DNA from: an uncultured Rhodospirillales bacterium
GTDB taxonomy: Bacteria; Pseudomonadota; Alphaproteobacteria; Acetobacterales; Acetobacteraceae
Direction: 5' to 3'
Assembly (NCBI GenBank): GCA_903893975.1
Contig: CAITOL010000168.1
Coordinates: forward strand, 1-64,000
Length of the DNA stretch: 64,000 nucleotides
A model generated the notes under the pieces. That model searched no databases and was not told where the DNA came from. It saw only the letters and a list, made by a program, of their open reading frames with translations. Position 1 is the first letter of the stretch, and each line of letters begins with the position of its first letter. Shown one piece after another: positions 19,126 through 50,124 of the stretch. Both the position numbers and the translations under genes were made by a program.

Positions 19126-19201
<76 letters not shown>

Positions 19202-19403
19202 AATCTCCCTCCCGATGAAAATTCCGCGTTCAGACAGCGTGCCCCCCCGGCGCGGCGCCATGCCGGTTCGGCGCGCGCGACCGCCCGTGCGCGACAAAAC
19301 GCAGACGAGGCTGCTAAGTTCTGCTACAATAAACGCTAAGTTGTTGTATAGTGGTGGCGTTTTTTCATCGTCGGGCAAGTCATTTGGCGGTCGAGGTATG
19401 TAA
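19202..19403 (+). promoter_or_regulatory. A/T-rich leader before the MORN-repeat gene
   Basis: The first half is ordinary GC-rich sequence; from about 19310 the composition turns A/T-rich (TTCTGCTACAATAAACGC, then TTGTTGTATAGT at about 19344-19352). TACAAT or TATAGT could serve as a -10 hexamer, but neither has a convincing -35 at the right distance. GAGG at 19393-19396 stands seven bases before ATG 19404. No hairpin terminator for the tRNA is visible. Confidence 0.35.
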
Positions 19404-21926
19404 ATGACAATTACTAGACATTTTATGATAATAAAATACATATCCGCAGCGATGTTAATCTTGCTCGGCGCGCCGCAAGCCTTGGCGCAAAGCCGGTTGC
19501 CGGCCTGCCCGACTGGGCCGGACGTGGTGTTCGACGGCTGCTTTGGCGCCGTAACCTACCCGATGGGCGGCAAATATGTCGGCGAATTCCGCAACGACAA
19601 AGAAAACGGCATGGGGACCTTCACCTTCCCCGACGGGAGGAAATTCGTCGGCGAGTTCCGCGACGGTGATTTCACTGCCAAGGGCGTGTTCACGTTCCCC
19701 AATGGCGAAAAATATGTCGGCGAATTCCGCGACGGCCGCTTTAACGGCGAAGGCACCTACACCTATGCCGATGCCAGTTTCTACACCGGCAGTTTCCGCG
19801 ATGGCCGGCCGAACGGCGCCGGCACTTTCGCCTTCCGCGACGGGCGCCGCTATACCGGCGCCTTCGTCAACGGCGAGTTCAACGGCCAGGGCAGTTTCAG
19901 CTTTCCCAACGGCGCCAAATATGTCGGTGCATTCCGCGATGGCAAATTCGCCGGCGAAGGCACCTATACCTACCCCGATGGCGGCAAATATGTCGGCGAG
20001 TTCCGCGACAGCACCCGCAATGGCCAGGGCACCTATATCTACCCGAACGGAGAACGCTACAGTGGCAGGTTCGTCGATGGCCGGTTCGCCAATCAGGGCA
20101 CGTTCAGCTATCCGGATGGCCGGAGTTATACCGGCACGTTCAAAGACGACAAATTCCACGGCCAGGGCAGCTTCGCCTTTCCGGACGGGCGCAAATATGT
20201 CGGCGATTTCCTCGCCGGCAAGTTCAGCGGGCGCGGCACCCTCACCTTCCCCGATGGGCGCAAATATGTCGGCGGCTTCGTCGATGGCGAATTCACCGGC
20301 CAGGGCAGCTATAGCTACCCGAATGGGGAGCAGTATGTCGGCGAATTCCGTGACGGCAAATTCGCCGGCCAGGGTACCTACAGCTACCCCAATGGCAGCA
20401 AATATGTCGGCGAACTGCACGACAATATTCCGAACGGCCAGGGCAGCTTCACCTTCGCCGATGGCCGGGTGTATGTGGGGCGCCTCGTCGATGGCAAGTT
20501 CAACGGTCAGGGCACGTTAACCTTCCCGAACGGGCGCGCCTATGTCGGCACGTTCAGCAACGACCAGTTCAACGGCCAAGGCAGCTTCACCTTCCCCGAC
20601 GGGCGCAAATATGTCGGCGAATTTCTCAACGGGAAGTTCAACGGCCAGGGCACACTCAGCTTCCGCAACGGACGGGTTTATCTCGGCAGCTTCAACGACG
20701 GGGAGTTCGACGGTCAGGGCACGTTCACCTACCCGAACGGCGAGAAATATGTCGGCACGTTCAAAGAGGGCGAGTTCAACGGCCAGGGCAGCTACACCTC
20801 CCCCATCGGGGACAGCTATGTCGGCGAATTCCGCGACAACGCCCGCAACGGCCAGGGCGTTTCCACCTTCGCCGACGGGCGCAAATATGTCGGCGGCTTT
20901 GTGGACGGAAAATTCAGCGGCCAGGGCACGCTCACGCTGGCCAATGGCCGGTCTTACGTCGGCGGTTTCGTCGATGGCGAGATGAGCGGCCGCGGCGTCT
21001 ACACCACCCCGGACGGGGAGAAATACGAGGGCGAGTTTCGCGACGACAAATTCAACGGCCAGGGCACCTACAGCTATCCAGATGGCGGGGTTTATCTCGG
21101 CGCCTTCCGCGACGGCAGCCGCAACGGCCAGGGCACCCAGGCCTATCCGAACGGGGAACGGTATGCGGGGGAATTCGTCGATGGCAAGCTGAACGGGCGC
21201 GGCATGCTAACCTTCCCGGACGGGCGGGTTTATGTGGGCGAAATGCGCGATGACCGGTTTAATGGTGTCGGCACCTACACCTATCCGAACGGCGAGAAAT
21301 ATGTCGGCGACTTCGTCGATGGGAAGTTTGAGGGCATTGGCACCTACACCTACACCGATGGCGGCAGCTATGTCGGGGAATTCCGCGCCAATAACCGCAA
21401 CGGCCAGGGCACGCATGTGTATCCGAACGGGGCGAAATATGTGGGCGACTTTCTCGACGGCAAATTCAACGGCAAAGGCAGCCTGACCATGCCGAATGGC
21501 CGGCAATATGTCGGCACGTTCAAAGACGATGCCTATGACGACCCGCTGCTGGAAGACATGGCGATTATCGCCGCCGCGATCGCGCTGCCGCTGCTGGCGC
21601 AGGGGGCGATTATCTGGCGCAACCGCAAAATCCGCTTCAACCGCGCCTGGTTCCTGGCCCTGTCGCTCAGCGCGGCGCTGGTGCTGCCGGTGGCGCTGGT
21701 CTCGCTGTATCTGGCGATTTCCGAGCTGGATTTTTATGTCACCATCGCCAGCTTCATCGCCTTGGTGACCGTGCTGCCGGGCGCGATCGGCTTTGCGGTG
21801 ACCAGCCGGCTGAACGCGCGCGGTCTGTCGCGCTGGCATTGCCTGTGGCTTTTGCCGCTCTACCCCCTTAGCATCGCCGCCATCGAAATGATGCGGGCGC
21901 CGGCCATTCCCGAGGCGGAGGCGTGA
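19404..21926 (+). CDS. Secreted/membrane MORN-repeat protein with about 29 repeats
   Basis: 840 residues. A Sec-type signal peptide (IKYISAAMLILLGAPQALAQ) is followed by a short Cys-containing linker and about 29 tandem 23-residue MORN repeats (residues 49 to about 715) of the form tYxYPDGxkYVGEFrDGkfNGqG. After them come three or four hydrophobic helices (about 722-745, 757-780, 786-808, 820-838) with basic loops. The repeats should lie in the periplasm, anchored by the C-terminal helices. MORN arrays bind lipids or act as scaffolds in eukaryotes; bacterial roles are mostly untested. It appears monocistronic, between tRNA-Lys and the pta-ack operon. Its 5' region is more A/T-rich than the surroundings. 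No catalytic domain is present. Confidence 0.85.
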   Translation: MTITRHFMIIKYISAAMLILLGAPQALAQSRLPACPTGPDVVFDGCFGAVTYPMGGKYVGEFRNDKENGMGTFTFPDGRKFVGEFRDGDFTAKGVFTFPNGEKYVGEFRDGRFNGEGTYTYADASFYTGSFRDGRPNGAGTFAFRDGRRYTGAFVNGEFNGQGSFSFPNGAKYVGAFRDGKFAGEGTYTYPDGGKYVGEFRDSTRNGQGTYIYPNGERYSGRFVDGRFANQGTFSYPDGRSYTGTFKDDKFHGQGSFAFPDGRKYVGDFLAGKFSGRGTLTFPDGRKYVGGFVDGEFTGQGSYSYPNGEQYVGEFRDGKFAGQGTYSYPNGSKYVGELHDNIPNGQGSFTFADGRVYVGRLVDGKFNGQGTLTFPNGRAYVGTFSNDQFNGQGSFTFPDGRKYVGEFLNGKFNGQGTLSFRNGRVYLGSFNDGEFDGQGTFTYPNGEKYVGTFKEGEFNGQGSYTSPIGDSYVGEFRDNARNGQGVSTFADGRKYVGGFVDGKFSGQGTLTLANGRSYVGGFVDGEMSGRGVYTTPDGEKYEGEFRDDKFNGQGTYSYPDGGVYLGAFRDGSRNGQGTQAYPNGERYAGEFVDGKLNGRGMLTFPDGRVYVGEMRDDRFNGVGTYTYPNGEKYVGDFVDGKFEGIGTYTYTDGGSYVGEFRANNRNGQGTHVYPNGAKYVGDFLDGKFNGKGSLTMPNGRQYVGTFKDDAYDDPLLEDMAIIAAAIALPLLAQGAIIWRNRKIRFNRAWFLALSLSAALVLPVALVSLYLAISELDFYVTIASFIALVTVLPGAIGFAVTSRLNARGLSRWHCLWLLPLYPLSIAAIEMMRAPAIPEAEA
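19548..21548 (+). repeat. 69-bp tandem repeat array encoding 29 MORN repeats
   Basis: The array keeps a strict 23-codon period from first to last copy with no frame change. Codons for the core YVGEF/FNGQG segments recur nearly unchanged (TATGTCGGCGAATTCCGC and AACGGCCAGGGC), while intervening codons differ, so the array is old enough to have diverged but shows local homogenisation. Its regular composition opens long false reading frames on both strands. Confidence 0.9.
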
Positions 21927-44570: not shown

Positions 44571-44660
44571 CAACCTAATGCAAAATTATGCGTTGTTTCG
44601 TATTTTTAGTCAGCACTACGGCGGTTTGCAGCGGCGGCTATGACGTGGAAAGGCTTTTCG

Positions 44661-45695
44661 ATGCGGGTATTCGGCGCCATTGGGGCGATTGCGGCCATGT
44701 GTGCGTTTGGCATGCCGGCGCAAGCGATGCTGATTATTCCAGATTTTGGCACCAGCATCACTACGGCCGGCAATTCCGCGGCCATTGAGGCCACGATTGA
44801 CGCCGCGATTGCCGAAATCGACGGCCTGATCGTCAACCCGCTGACGCTGCATATTGACTTTCAGACCGCCAGCCTGTCCGGCGGGGGGCTGGGCACATCG
44901 ACGCAAACCCTGATGGGCGCCTTTTACAGCACCGTGCGCGCTGAATTGAGCAGCGATGCCGCGACGCATGCCTCCAACGCCGTGCTGGCGACGGCGGTGG
45001 CCAACCTGCCAACCGGATTCATCGCGCCCGATGGCGTGACCTATTCCACCACCGGGCAGACGCTGCTTTATCTGACCCAAGCCAATTACATGCTGCTGGG
45101 GAACACCACATCCCCCTGCTACGACAGCAGCGGCAATTATGTAGGCTGTTCGGCCGGCAACGGTGGCACCGATGTCGGCGTGGTGACGCTGAGCAATGCC
45201 ACCAGCGGCGGTGCAGCGCTGGACTGGACCCGGCCGGTAACATCGACGACGACCGATGCGGTGCGCGTGGTGCTGCATGAGATCGACGAAATCCTGGGCA
45301 TCGGCGGTGGCGGCAGCATGCTGGGCAACCAGACCAATGCGATCGGGATGACGGATTTGTACCGCTACAGCGCCGCCAACACGCCGTCTTACGCCACCGG
45401 GGCAACCGGGGTGTATCTGTCGATCAACAAGGGCGTGACCTCGATCGTGGCGGCCAACCAGACCGCGGGCGGCGATTATGGCGATTTCGGCGCCAGCGGC
45501 TGCACCGCCTATGTCCAGCAAGCCTTCACCTGCCAGAACCAGCAGGCCAATCTGACTGCGACCTCGCCCGAGGCGACGCTGTTGCAGGCGATTGGCTACA
45601 CGCTGATCCCGGTGCCAGAGCCGGGATCGCTGGCGATACTGGCGACGGGCATTGCCGCCATTCCGGCGCTGCGGCGCCGGCGCGGCTTGCGCTGA
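44661..45695 (+). CDS. PEP-CTERM-anchored secreted protein, metalloprotease-like
   Basis: 344 residues from ATG 44661, chosen because AAAGG lies seven bases upstream; ATG 44640 would add seven residues. A signal peptide (VFGAIGAIAAMCAFGMPAQA) starts the protein, and the C-terminus has VPEPGSLAILATGIAAIPAL followed by RRRRGLR, a classic PEP-CTERM sorting signal recognised by an exosortase. The middle contains VLHEIDEILG (His206, Glu207, Glu210), reminiscent of zinc-protease HEXXE/HEXXH helices and like the NF038122-type PEP-CTERM group. Activity is unproven. No exosortase is in the window. Confidence 0.78.
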   Translation: MRVFGAIGAIAAMCAFGMPAQAMLIIPDFGTSITTAGNSAAIEATIDAAIAEIDGLIVNPLTLHIDFQTASLSGGGLGTSTQTLMGAFYSTVRAELSSDAATHASNAVLATAVANLPTGFIAPDGVTYSTTGQTLLYLTQANYMLLGNTTSPCYDSSGNYVGCSAGNGGTDVGVVTLSNATSGGAALDWTRPVTSTTTDAVRVVLHEIDEILGIGGGGSMLGNQTNAIGMTDLYRYSAANTPSYATGATGVYLSINKGVTSIVAANQTAGGDYGDFGASGCTAYVQQAFTCQNQQANLTATSPEATLLQAIGYTLIPVPEPGSLAILATGIAAIPALRRRRGLR

Positions 45696-45752
45696 TCGGG
45701 CGCGGCGCGCAGTCTCCCCGCCACGGCGAATCTGTGACGTAAGGGAGAAATC

Positions 45753-47321
45753 ATGTCCGCGACGGCCCCGAAACCCGAGACGATGAATGGGGCCGAAAGC
45801 CTCGTCCACACTTTGCTGGCCAGCGGGGTGGATACGTGCTTCGCCAATCCCGGCACGTCGGAAATGCATTTCGTCGCCGCGCTGGACCGTATTCCGGGCA
45901 TGCGCTGCGTGCTCGGGCTGTTTGAAGGCGTGGTGACCGGGGCGGCGGATGGCTATGCCCGCATCGCCGGCAAACCGGCGGCGACCTTGCTGCATTGCGG
46001 CCCCGGCCTGGCCAATGCGCTGGCCAATTTGCACAATGGCCGCCGCGCCAACACCATGATGGTGAATTGCGTCGGCGATCAGGCGACGTATCACCGCCCG
46101 CTGGACGCCCCGTTGACCGCCGATACCGAGGGCCTGGCGCGCAGCGTGTCCGGCTGGGTGCGCACGGCGAGCTCGGCGGCCAATGTCGGCGCGGATGCGG
46201 CAGTGGCGGTGCAGGCGGCGCAGACCTCTCCGGGGCAGATCGCCACGCTGATCCTGCCGTCCGACACGTGCTGGGACAGCGGCGGGGTGATCGGGATGCC
46301 GCTGCCGATCCCCAAGCCGGCCACGGTGGACGGGCATGTGGTACGCAATGCCGCCGCCGCGCTGCGCAATGGCAAAAAGACGCTGATCCTGCTGGCCAAT
46401 GCCGCCTTGCGCGCCGAGCCGCTGGCGGACGCGGTGCGCATTGCCCAGGCGACCGGGGCCATGCTGCTGGCGCAGGGATCGAACGCCCGGGTTGAACGCG
46501 GCGAGGGCCGGCATTTCATCGACCGTATCCCCTACCCCGTCGATCAGGCGATCGCGCGGTTGAAGGATGTGGAGCAGGTGATCCTGGTCGGCGCGGTCAA
46601 GCCAGTGATCTTCTTCGCCTACCCGAACAAGCCGGGCACGCCGGTGCCGGCCAATGCGGTGGTGCACGTGCTGAGCCGGCCGGAGCACGACCAGGCGCAG
46701 GCGCTGGCGGCGCTGGCCGAGGAACTGGGCCAGCCGGCCGCCGTGCCGGCGCCGGGCTTTATCGGCGGCGAGGTCGGGCGCGGGAAAATCACCTCCGAAG
46801 CCTTTGCGGCGTCGTTGGTGGCGCTGCTGCCGGAAAATGCGATTGTCGCCGATGAAAGCGTGACCTTCGGCCGGGCGATTTACCCGAACACCGCCGGGGC
46901 GCGGCGGCATGACTGGCTGACCGTGACCGGTGGCGCCATCGGCGGCGGCATTCCGTTGGCGACCGGCTGCGCGGTGGCGGCACCGCATCGCCGGGTGGTG
47001 AACCTGGAGGCGGACGGGTCGGCGATGTACACCCTGCAAGGGCTGTGGACGCAGGCGCGGGAAAAGCTGAACGTGACCACAGTAGTGTTCGCCAACCGCA
47101 AATATCAGATCCTGCTGGGCGAATTGGCCAATGTGGGCGCCAATCCGGGCCGCACGGCGCTGGATATGATGGATCTGGGCAACCCGGATATCGACTTCGT
47201 CAAACTGGCGAACGGGATGGGCGTGGAAGCGGCGCGGGCGGACACGATGGAACAGTTCAACGACCTGTTCACCCAGTCGCTCAGCCGCGAAGGGCCGTTC
47301 CTGATTGAATTGATGACCTGA
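45753..47321 (+). CDS. Thiamine-diphosphate enzyme, acetolactate-synthase-large-subunit-like
   Basis: 522 residues, shorter than IlvB (about 560-590). GVDTCFANPGTSEMHFVAALD and CVLGLFEGVVTGAADGYARIAGKPAATLLHCGPGLANALANLHN show the Pyr domain with the activating Glu. The C-terminal PP domain has NLEADGSAMYTLQGLWTQAREKLNVTTVVFANRKYQIL, the GDG-type ThDP/Mg motif in the variant form EADGS. It belongs to the IlvB-like or benzoylformate-decarboxylase-like group of unassigned specificity. No small subunit follows, so true branched-chain synthesis is unlikely. Confidence 0.84.
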   Translation: MSATAPKPETMNGAESLVHTLLASGVDTCFANPGTSEMHFVAALDRIPGMRCVLGLFEGVVTGAADGYARIAGKPAATLLHCGPGLANALANLHNGRRANTMMVNCVGDQATYHRPLDAPLTADTEGLARSVSGWVRTASSAANVGADAAVAVQAAQTSPGQIATLILPSDTCWDSGGVIGMPLPIPKPATVDGHVVRNAAAALRNGKKTLILLANAALRAEPLADAVRIAQATGAMLLAQGSNARVERGEGRHFIDRIPYPVDQAIARLKDVEQVILVGAVKPVIFFAYPNKPGTPVPANAVVHVLSRPEHDQAQALAALAEELGQPAAVPAPGFIGGEVGRGKITSEAFAASLVALLPENAIVADESVTFGRAIYPNTAGARRHDWLTVTGGAIGGGIPLATGCAVAAPHRRVVNLEADGSAMYTLQGLWTQAREKLNVTTVVFANRKYQILLGELANVGANPGRTALDMMDLGNPDIDFVKLANGMGVEAARADTMEQFNDLFTQSLSREGPFLIELMT

Positions 47322-47413
47322 CACCAGCCGGCGCCTGACTCCCCCGCCGCGCGGCGACGTGATAGGGAAACGCCGACGACGCGGAGGGGTCCGGTCGCCG
47401 TTGGAGGGCTGGC

Positions 47414-48094
47414 GTGGCAGAGGTTTCGCAGGACGATATCGAACGCCTGGCGGCGCGCGTGGCAATGCTGGTCTCCGATGATGGGGAGGCCGCCAATGCC
47501 GGGCGCGCGGTGGGGCAACTGGCGCGGCGGCTGGGCCTGTCCGGCGGCGACCTGAAGGAATTATTCCTGACCGGCAGCCTGTCCGGCGGGCGCAAGCCGC
47601 CGGAGCCGACGGTGGATGCGCAGCAGGAAATCGCCACGCTGAAGCGCAACCTGCGCCGGTTGGAGCACGTGGTGCACAACCTGCAAGAGGAGCGCGACCG
47701 GCTGGTGGCCGAAGCCGGCAGCTTGCGGGTAGGCATGTATCGCGCCCGTGCCAATCGGAAATTGCGGCTGGGGCTGATCGGGCTGGGGGCGCTGATCGTG
47801 CTCGGCGGCGGCTGGGCGGTGGCGTATCTGGATTTCGATCTGGCGCCGCGCACGCCGCCACGCCGGGAAGCGCCGGCCGGCCTGGCCGGCACCGGCACCA
47901 CCGCCGTGGTGCGCAGCGCGCGCGGGACGCTGTATTCCGAGCCGGACAAAGCGTCCGCCCCGGTGAGCTTTGTGCCGATTGGCACCCGACTGCCGCTGCG
48001 CCGGTTGGTGTGGAATATGATGACGCAATGGGCGGAAGTGGATCTGAACGGCAAAACGGCGTTTGTGCCGACGACTGAGATTGAGATGTTTTGA
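47414..48094 (+). CDS. Membrane-anchored coiled-coil protein with SH3-like domain
   Basis: 226 residues from GTG 47414 (GGAGG six bases upstream). Residues 1-65 are helical and polar; about 68-105 form a coiled coil (IATLKRNLRRLEHVVHNLQEER); one membrane span follows (LIGLGALIVLGGGWAVAYL); the C-terminal 65 residues (TTAVVRSARGTLYSEPDKASAPVSF...WAEVDLNGKTAFVPTTEIEMF) look like a bacterial SH3 domain of the cell-wall-binding type. The SH3 part should be periplasmic. Function unknown. Repeat copy C begins 22 bp after its stop. Confidence 0.7.
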   Translation: MAEVSQDDIERLAARVAMLVSDDGEAANAGRAVGQLARRLGLSGGDLKELFLTGSLSGGRKPPEPTVDAQQEIATLKRNLRRLEHVVHNLQEERDRLVAEAGSLRVGMYRARANRKLRLGLIGLGALIVLGGGWAVAYLDFDLAPRTPPRREAPAGLAGTGTTAVVRSARGTLYSEPDKASAPVSFVPIGTRLPLRRLVWNMMTQWAEVDLNGKTAFVPTTEIEMF

Positions 48095-48116
48095 CGGAGT
48101 GAAGGCGAGTTAAGAT

Positions 48117-48249
48117 GTTCTTTTTGTGAACAAAAAGAACCAAAAAAACTTCGTCGATTCCTGGGCTTCGCCGTACACCCCCTAGGTTGGGCCGTACGCA
48201 CCGACCCAAAGAGATGAAAGTTTTTTGCTCCTTTTTTTCAAAAAAGGAG
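48117..48249. repeat. Dispersed twin-hairpin element, copy C
   Basis: Left hairpin GTTCTTTTTGT, GA, ACAAAAAGAAC (48117-48140), then CCAAAAAAACTTC. The core has two GCCGTAC words (GCCGTACACC and GCCGTACGCACCG). The right end is GAAAGTTTTTTG with hairpin CTCCTTTTTT, TC, AAAAAAGGAG (48228-48249), identical to the right end of copy B. Its left hairpin is identical to that of copy A, so the ends are mixed between copies. The gene-free stretch 48095-48411 consists of this element and an A/T-rich 5' leader for the peptidase gene. Confidence 0.82.
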
Positions 48250-48411: not shown

Positions 48412-50124
48412 ATGGCTGCCGCACCCACGATCGACTTTCGTCGCAAACTGCTGCCGCTGGACGACGGCGCGGCGGGTTTGGACCAGACCGCCCCCGTTCC
48501 GTTCGACGCGCCGAGCCCGGAGGCGCCACTGGCGAACGGGCTGGCGGTGATCACGCCGAGCGTGGTCAGCAACGGCGCCGCACAGGCGATGCTGGTGCCG
48601 CTGGCCAGCAAAACCTATGGCGTGACCGGCGCCGGGATCAAAATCGGCATCTTGTCCGACAGTTTCAACCTGACCGGCGGCTATGCCGCGGACGTGGCCA
48701 ATGGCAGCCTGGCCGCTGGGGCGACGGTGTTGAAGGAAGGCCCGGCTGGTAGCAGCGACGAAGGCCGGGCGATGGCCGAGTTGATCCACAAAATCGCCCC
48801 CAATGCGCAGATCGAGTTTTATTCGGCGTTCTATGGCGAGGCCGATTTCGCCAACGGCATCGCCGCCCTGACCGCCGCCGGCTGCAACGTGATTGTGGAC
48901 GATGTTACCTATTTGACCGAGCCGTTTTTCCAGACTGGGGACGTGATCCAGACCGCGGTGCAAACGGCGATCAATGCCGGGGTGAGCTATTTCACCTCCG
49001 CCAGCAATGAGGGCAGCAATTTCTATCAGGCGTCGTTTACCGGGGTGAAAACCACGCTGACCGGGCTGGCCGGCAGCTATCTGGCGGAGAATTTCGGCAC
49101 CGCCAGCGCGCCGGTGACGCGGCAGAGCCTGACCATCGCCAAGGGGGCGACCGCCAGCATCGACCTGCAATGGGACCAGCCTTTTGCCGGGATTGGCGGC
49201 AAGACCGGGGCGGCCAACAGCCTGGGCATGGTGCTGTACGACAGTTCCAACCACATCGTGGCCTATGCCACGATGAACGATGTGAACCGCAATCCGGACC
49301 AGATTCTGCAATTCACCAACACCACTGCCAGCACCGGGTTCAGCCTGGCGATTTTCACCAATGGCGGCAGCACTGTGCCGGGGCAGTTCAAATACATCGT
49401 CTACGGCCAGGGCACCACGATCAACGACCCGCATGCCGGCAAGGGCTCCGGCACGCTGATCGGGCATGAGGAGGTGGCGGCGGCCAACACGGTGGGGGCG
49501 GTGGCCTATACCCAAACCGCGGCCTATGGCGGCAAGAACGCGGTGGAGAGTTTTTCCTCGGTCGGGCCGGGCAGCTTGCTGTTCGACGCCAATGGCAACC
49601 GGCTGGCGCAGGCGACCAGCTCGGGCGGGGTGGATTTCATCGCCCCGGATGGTGCTGCGACCAATGTGTTCAACCCGTTCTATGGCACATCGGCCGCCGC
49701 GCCGAACGCGGCTGCGGTGGCGGCGCTGATGTTGCAGGCGAACCACACGCTGACCCCGGCGCAGGTGAGTGCGGATTTGCAGGCCTCAACCATCGGCGCC
49801 AGCGGCGGGGCCAGTGCGGCGGGGGCCGGGCTGATCCAGGCCCCGGCGGCGGTGAAGCTGGCGCTGGCGAGCAAGCCGAGCGTGGCCACCAGCACGCTCG
49901 CCACCCTAGCCGCCACGCCGACGACGGTGAGCAGCGCGCTGGGCCTGGTGAACGCCGACCCGAGCGCCACTGCCGATTTCTACGCCAGCCTGGACCCGCA
50001 GGCGGCGGCCTGGGCCCCTGATGCAGCGCCGCCGGTGGCGGCCAGCACCGCCGCCCTGGCGATGCTCAACAATCTCAATTTCGGTGTGCCGGTACTGACC
50101 GACCCGAACCCGCTCGGGGCCTGA
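48412..50124 (+). CDS. Subtilase-fold serine peptidase of the S53-like group
   Basis: 570 residues. KIGILSDSFNLTGGY holds Asp83; the position usually taken by the catalytic His is in SSDEGRAMAELIHKIAPNA, where Asp116-Glu117 suggest the sedolisin-like Glu/Asp/Ser set; IVDDVTYL gives the oxyanion Asp; FYGTSAAAPNAAAVAALML holds Ser427. No signal peptide is seen at the N-terminus (AAAPTIDFRRKLLPLDDG), and after residue 470 a low-complexity Ala/Thr/Ser tail of about 100 residues follows. It may leave the cell by a type I route or act as a self-processed protein, but nothing adjacent shows this. Confidence 0.8.
   Translation: MAAAPTIDFRRKLLPLDDGAAGLDQTAPVPFDAPSPEAPLANGLAVITPSVVSNGAAQAMLVPLASKTYGVTGAGIKIGILSDSFNLTGGYAADVANGSLAAGATVLKEGPAGSSDEGRAMAELIHKIAPNAQIEFYSAFYGEADFANGIAALTAAGCNVIVDDVTYLTEPFFQTGDVIQTAVQTAINAGVSYFTSASNEGSNFYQASFTGVKTTLTGLAGSYLAENFGTASAPVTRQSLTIAKGATASIDLQWDQPFAGIGGKTGAANSLGMVLYDSSNHIVAYATMNDVNRNPDQILQFTNTTASTGFSLAIFTNGGSTVPGQFKYIVYGQGTTINDPHAGKGSGTLIGHEEVAAANTVGAVAYTQTAAYGGKNAVESFSSVGPGSLLFDANGNRLAQATSSGGVDFIAPDGAATNVFNPFYGTSAAAPNAAAVAALMLQANHTLTPAQVSADLQASTIGASGGASAAGAGLIQAPAAVKLALASKPSVATSTLATLAATPTTVSSALGLVNADPSATADFYASLDPQAAAWAPDAAPPVAASTAALAMLNNLNFGVPVLTDPNPLGA

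Follow-up and report, generated by a model that had tools for sequence, protein, structure and literature searches.

How would a bacterium use a long MORN-repeat array that is placed between a signal peptide and a group of membrane helices, and on which side of the inner membrane would such an array lie? These questions are raised by a gene in the DNA analysed here, a stretch of 64,000 nucleotides from an uncultured Rhodospirillales bacterium (the window). A sequence-only reading had previously proposed a large, membrane-anchored protein on the periplasmic side, with a signal peptide, 29 uninterrupted 23-residue repeats, three or four terminal helices and no accompanying enzyme domain. It also pointed to an A/T-rich leader and to an adjoining tRNA-Lys gene as a possible integration site, and it implied that a MORN array outside the eukaryotic cell is remarkable. 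We find that the ORF, which starts with ATG and has a GAGG upstream (positions 19393–19396), is a genuine gene for an apparently exported MORN-repeat membrane protein (Table 1). The protein, hereafter called the window protein, is a membrane-tailed form of the exported MORN proteins of bacteria, a class that is widespread but has received little study. What is new is the predicted anchoring of an exported MORN array by C-terminal helices, which was seen in no relative examined.

Table 1. The MORN gene, its parts and its upstream neighbour (positions refer to the window)
Feature	Position	Strand	Basis
tRNA-Lys (anticodon CTT), upstream neighbour	19126..19201	+	ARAGORN
A/T-rich leader and gene start, 43.5% GC (window 65.6%)	19320..19490	+	Composition, codon counts
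Exported MORN-repeat membrane protein gene, 840 aa	19404..21926	+	ORF list, Pfam, sequence inspection
Signal peptide, residues 1–28, predicted cleavage ALA/QS; alternative start ATG at 19425	19404..19487	+	Sequence and hydropathy
N-terminal cap, Cys35 and Cys46, motif RLPxCP...F-x-x-C-x-G	19488..19574	+	Alignment
28 complete 23-residue MORN repeats, residues 58–701	19575..21506	+	Pfam, register analysis
Half MORN repeat ending the array, residues 702–709	21507..21530	+	Register analysis
Four predicted membrane helices, residues 714–830; loops 1 and 3 positive, loop 2 negative (N-out, C-out)	21543..21893	+	Hydropathy, models, loop charges

Pfam recognised the MORN motif (PF02493) in 28 stretches of the window protein with an E-value of 1.1e-150 (score 481 bits, Pfam threshold 22.5). 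The 23-residue register is exact, and all 28 complete copies have Y or F at position 1 and G at positions 3 and 14. The 23-residue repeats had thus been recognised correctly and their number reaches 29 if the half copy is counted, but only 28 of them are whole. A block period of four or six repeats was suggestive and not significant (permutation p 0.06), and since the higher-order period had this p-value, we do not claim a recent block duplication within the array. The closest sequences with solved structures were those of the crystallised MORN1 proteins (E 7.7e-40). MORN1 of Trypanosoma, Toxoplasma and Plasmodium shares the uninterrupted MORN array with the window protein, whereas it has 15 repeats, is intracellular and carries neither a signal peptide nor membrane helices. 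Structure prediction, which the sequence-only reading had named as a check, answered in part: single-sequence AlphaFold models (mean pLDDT 57 and 58) support an alternation with two strands per repeat as well as the four helices, but they give no detailed shape. The matches to beta-helix proteins (among them tailspikes and adhesins) from the fold comparison of the full model (mean pLDDT 57) were given no weight, as Foldseek returned no match at E 0.001; other folds remain compatible. In Pfam, no domain besides MORN exceeded the cut-off in the window protein, and residues 704–840 gave no match of any kind, so the enzyme domain that follows the array in MORN-caspase and other MORN-enzyme fusions is lacking. 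On this point the sequence-only reading was right.

With regard to export, the N-terminus holds a hydrophobic stretch that ends at a standard cleavage site; the signal peptide, as proposed earlier, is assigned by hydropathy and inspection. The cap region that follows (residues 29–57) holds C35 and C46, the sole cysteines outside the membrane part, and a degenerate, shortened MORN copy (N-cap, residues 43–57) precedes the array. The signal peptide would be cleaved, and a disulphide between C35 and C46 would close the cap. At the other end of the protein, helices are predicted at about residues 714–739, 747–773, 777–805 and 811/819–830, which settles the expected three or four at a predicted four. 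Loop 1 between helices 1 and 2 (IWRNRKIRFNRAW) contains five K+R and no D+E, loop 2 between helices 2 and 3 (LAISELDFYVT) no K+R and two D+E, and loop 3 between helices 3 and 4 (SRLNARGLSRWHC) three K+R and no D+E, while the C-terminal tail after helix 4 is slightly acidic (one K+R, two D+E). The loop charges test the topology independently of the signal peptide, and according to the positive-inside rule they would give array and C-terminus alike a periplasmic location. Signal peptide, cysteine-pair cap and positive-inside rule all agree on this predicted N-out topology with a periplasmic array, which is thereby supported at the level of hydropathy, charge and the low-confidence models described above. 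The host genome also encodes LptD (E 1.7e-62), so an outer membrane exists, and together with signal peptide, cap and loop charges this supports the view of a large membrane-anchored protein on the periplasmic side.

Exported MORN proteins of this kind are by no means rare. The window protein was matched in 87 of the 385 genomes of its class, at least one MORN gene was found in each of the five genomes of the genus, and MORN repeats have been called ubiquitous in prokaryotes (PMC7725318). Judged by a simple rule based on hydropathy, as many as 42 of the 69 distinct MORN ORFs fetched begin in the manner of a signal peptide; it should be underlined that this rule overlooks some genuine cases, including the window protein, and that the survey was built from matches to the window protein and hence does not sample MORN genes without bias. 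The view that such an array is remarkable merely for lying outside a eukaryotic cell is not supported. Between the signal-peptide-like start and the first repeat, 21 of these 42 ORFs have two cysteines, 15 have none, five have one and one has three, which suggests that a disulphide cap may be widespread. The cysteine-pair cap PxC...C-G marks one large group of exported MORN proteins and is present in the window protein, whose cap (RLPACP...FDGCFG) aligns with those of L042, L118, L054, L013, L114 and L087. The C-terminal domains of cap-bearing proteins include a caspase (L042), a trypsin-like protease (L118) and a peptidoglycan-binding domain (L087), and all three proteins resemble the window protein in having a signal peptide or lipobox-like start, the cysteine pair and a 23-residue MORN array. 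Since the same cap and array stand before varied C-terminal domains, they appear to be a reusable exported module with interchangeable tails. After the array, exported capped MORN proteins carry an enzyme or a wall-binding domain or have no further domain; the window protein has a larger number of repeats, and its array is followed by four predicted membrane helices.

Several other MORN genes were noted along the way. The peptidoglycan-binding protein L087 (L087:6669-7562, minus strand) is a second capped MORN protein of the same genome (G000:C45), with a lipobox-like VAGC and a C-terminal PF01471 domain. This genome also encodes a protein with MORN repeats and an aspartyl-protease domain (PF13975), cut by the contig end (L086:8577-9302); counterparts with a signal-peptide-like start are present in all four congeners (L015-L018), so that this gene is conserved in the genus, unlike the window gene. 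On Picosynechococcus plasmids, a MORN gene with a signal peptide adjoins TonB and iron-uptake genes (L132:2501-3268 and L130:2540-3448). A small genome of 1.2 Mb from the same class (G059) gave 24 MORN matches on many contigs (L010, L025, L033, L035-L038), an expanded MORN family.

The membrane tail is a different matter. These 137 residues had no confident relative in 100 relatives, nor in larger sets of 299 family, 385 class and 349 phylum genomes, and no confident match in Pfam, PHROGs or PDB sequences. The tail searches gave three weak matches (G116, L101 and L127; E 1.8e-4 to 9.4e-4), and the one in G116, whose reading frame resembles an ABC-transporter permease, was rejected as a chance hydrophobic likeness. 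In a strict scan, which recovers the window protein, no C-terminal helix bundle was detected among the 76 other MORN ORFs. Just one of the others was seen to have hydrophobic helices downstream of its array, an ORF of 1298 residues on a Methylomonas plasmid (L129) whose long tail contains two hydrophobic segments midway. Nor was the gene found in the four congeners, the assemblies of which are fragmented and 91–97% complete; as far as can be seen, it is species-specific. Conservation of gene and position in all relatives, the pattern that would have spoken against the sequence-only reading, was thus not observed. As to phylogenetic distribution, MORN arrays are common, whereas no orthologue of the whole gene and no confident relative of its tail was found. 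A scan of viral_contigs yielded no relative of the window protein, two phage records contained distant MORN matches, and no close viral or plasmid relative was found. The gene stands alone, with no partner gene and no orthologue to show a conserved neighbourhood.

Taken together, the window protein is probably an exported, inner-membrane-anchored periplasmic scaffold, the ladder of which serves as a protein-binding, self-associating rod. The signal peptide would direct the chain through Sec and then be cut off, the disulphide-bonded cap would close the start of the array, and the 28 repeats would fold into one long beta-sheet ladder, held at its base in the inner membrane by the four C-terminal helices with both termini outside. 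In the periplasm the ladder would bind proteins and self-associate as a rod; it would be long enough for the cell wall and the outer membrane, and may link or space envelope layers. We infer an array length of about 25 nm and a binding or tethering role. The lengths given for TbMORN1 are about 80 Å for nine MORN repeats and about 250–260 Å for a dimer with 14 repeats (PMC7725318); at this spacing of nine repeats per 80 Å, known from crystal structures, 28 repeats in one chain would measure about 250 Å. A periplasm-spanning length equal to this is quoted for an envelope complex of Brucella, another alphaproteobacterium (PMC12436622). Moreover, MORN1 proteins dimerise via their repeats, and binding to membranes was not supported for them (PMC7725318). 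The rod is also supported by the capped, lipoprotein-like and peptidoglycan-binding L087 from the same genome. No outer-membrane or wall-binding domain was seen at the free N-terminal end of the window protein.

A narrower form of the rod, to which we attach a tentative and rather low likelihood, is a periplasm-spanning tether resembling junctophilin, in which the ladder would contact the outer membrane or the wall and set the distance between the layers. Junctophilin is eukaryotic and cytosolic, its MORN groups are split by a joining region and it has a single C-terminal helix, whereas the window protein has four; the likeness is one of analogy and not of kinship. It consists in the order of parts, an N-terminal MORN array followed by a C-terminal membrane anchor, and junctophilin, which inserts into a membrane at its C-terminus, touches two membranes with one protein (PMC9692390). 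The estimated length, which matches a periplasm, and the occurrence in the same genome of L087, in which the window protein's cap is combined with a peptidoglycan-binding domain, are further points in favour of a tether. So is TIC100 of the chloroplast envelope, a MORN protein that probably lies between the two envelope membranes (PMC9338805), although the match is weak (E 8.5e-4) and TIC100 has three recognised repeats, belongs to a translocon complex and has no anchor of its own described in that paper; again we regard this as analogy and not kinship. However, junctophilin differs in its mode of anchoring and in facing the cytosol, the window protein shows no identified contact site for the outer membrane, and in a careful test membranes were not bound by MORN repeats (PMC7725318). 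It is also evident that array length varies freely among relatives, contrary to what is expected of a fixed ruler. We consider it unlikely that the protein is an independently evolved bacterial counterpart of junctophilin, that is, a single-chain MORN ruler with a new four-helix anchor which spans the periplasm and fixes the distance from the inner membrane to the outer membrane or wall. Two further explanations concern the ends of the protein. The array could be cytoplasmic if the N-terminal hydrophobic segment were a retained anchor, with the repeats binding cytoplasmic partners as proposed for the MORN-heliorhodopsins of Dethiobacteria. These also join bacterial MORN repeats to membrane helices, and their repeats are described as cytoplasmic (PMC8612252); they differ from the window protein in having about three repeats, located on the cytoplasmic side and N-terminal to the rhodopsin. 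That the signal peptide was called by hydropathy and inspection leaves some room for such an arrangement, but the loop charges of the tail oppose it, ALA/QS is a standard cleavage site and exported relatives typically carry the cysteine-pair cap, so we find a cytoplasmic array very unlikely. The helical tail might instead be an accidental fusion, in which a soluble exported MORN protein ran on into a membrane-protein frame and anchoring is unselected. This would fit a tail without a confident relative in any search and an architecture seen once; it is nevertheless improbable, given a third-position GC of 0.856 in the tail, as in neighbouring genes, and loop charges that are coherent with the signal peptide.

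A last explanation concerns the origin of the gene, namely that an element which integrated at tRNA-Lys carries it as cargo. The proximity noted in the sequence-only reading is real: the MORN gene begins 202 nt past the tRNA gene on the same strand, and downstream of it lie a gene for a MaoC–phosphate acetyltransferase fusion and an acetate kinase gene. The A/T-rich leader is equally real, the 170 nt from position 19320 being among the lowest 0.5% of such stretches in GC content. Moreover, the 29 signal-peptide codons include three ATA and one AGA, compared with one ATA and no AGA in the 2020 codons of five neighbouring genes. These features, together with the lack of the gene in all four congeners searched, favour a cargo gene. 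In contrast, no att-like repeat was detected, as the longest match to the 3' half of tRNA-Lys in the 64 kb window was 10–11 nt, equal to that in shuffled sequence. Pfam revealed no recombinase, integrase or transposase among about 18 window ORFs scanned, and these neighbours are ordinary transport, sugar and other metabolic genes. Outside the leader, the gene has a native, neighbour-like third-position GC of 0.77–0.86, and it has no close relative on viruses or plasmids. In the congeners, liv transporter genes (livH), tRNA-Lys and pta-ack are found at unlinked places, so little can be read from the position of the MORN gene beside the tRNA gene; the neighbourhood is generally rearranged across these genomes. 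We therefore give hardly any credence to integration at tRNA-Lys, while a recent acquisition of the MORN gene is possible.

The proposed periplasmic rod bears on a wider question, as the function of MORN repeats is unsettled and their binding to membranes has been doubted in careful work (PMC7725318). Their exported bacterial forms, although common, have received little attention. An inner-membrane-anchored ladder of about 25 nm would offer a clean test of rods versus tethers, with an array that can be shortened in steps of 23 residues. The cysteine-pair cap provides a simple sequence mark for a whole class of exported MORN proteins, those with interchangeable tails.

Elsewhere in the window we noted a gene for a PEP-CTERM-tagged protein (44640–45695) and a gene for a subtilase-family protease (48412–50124). 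Two long antisense ORFs on the minus strand were taken as artefacts of high G+C content, one opposite the MORN array (19455–20420) and one, without a domain of its own, opposite Pfam-supported plus-strand genes (44616–48209).
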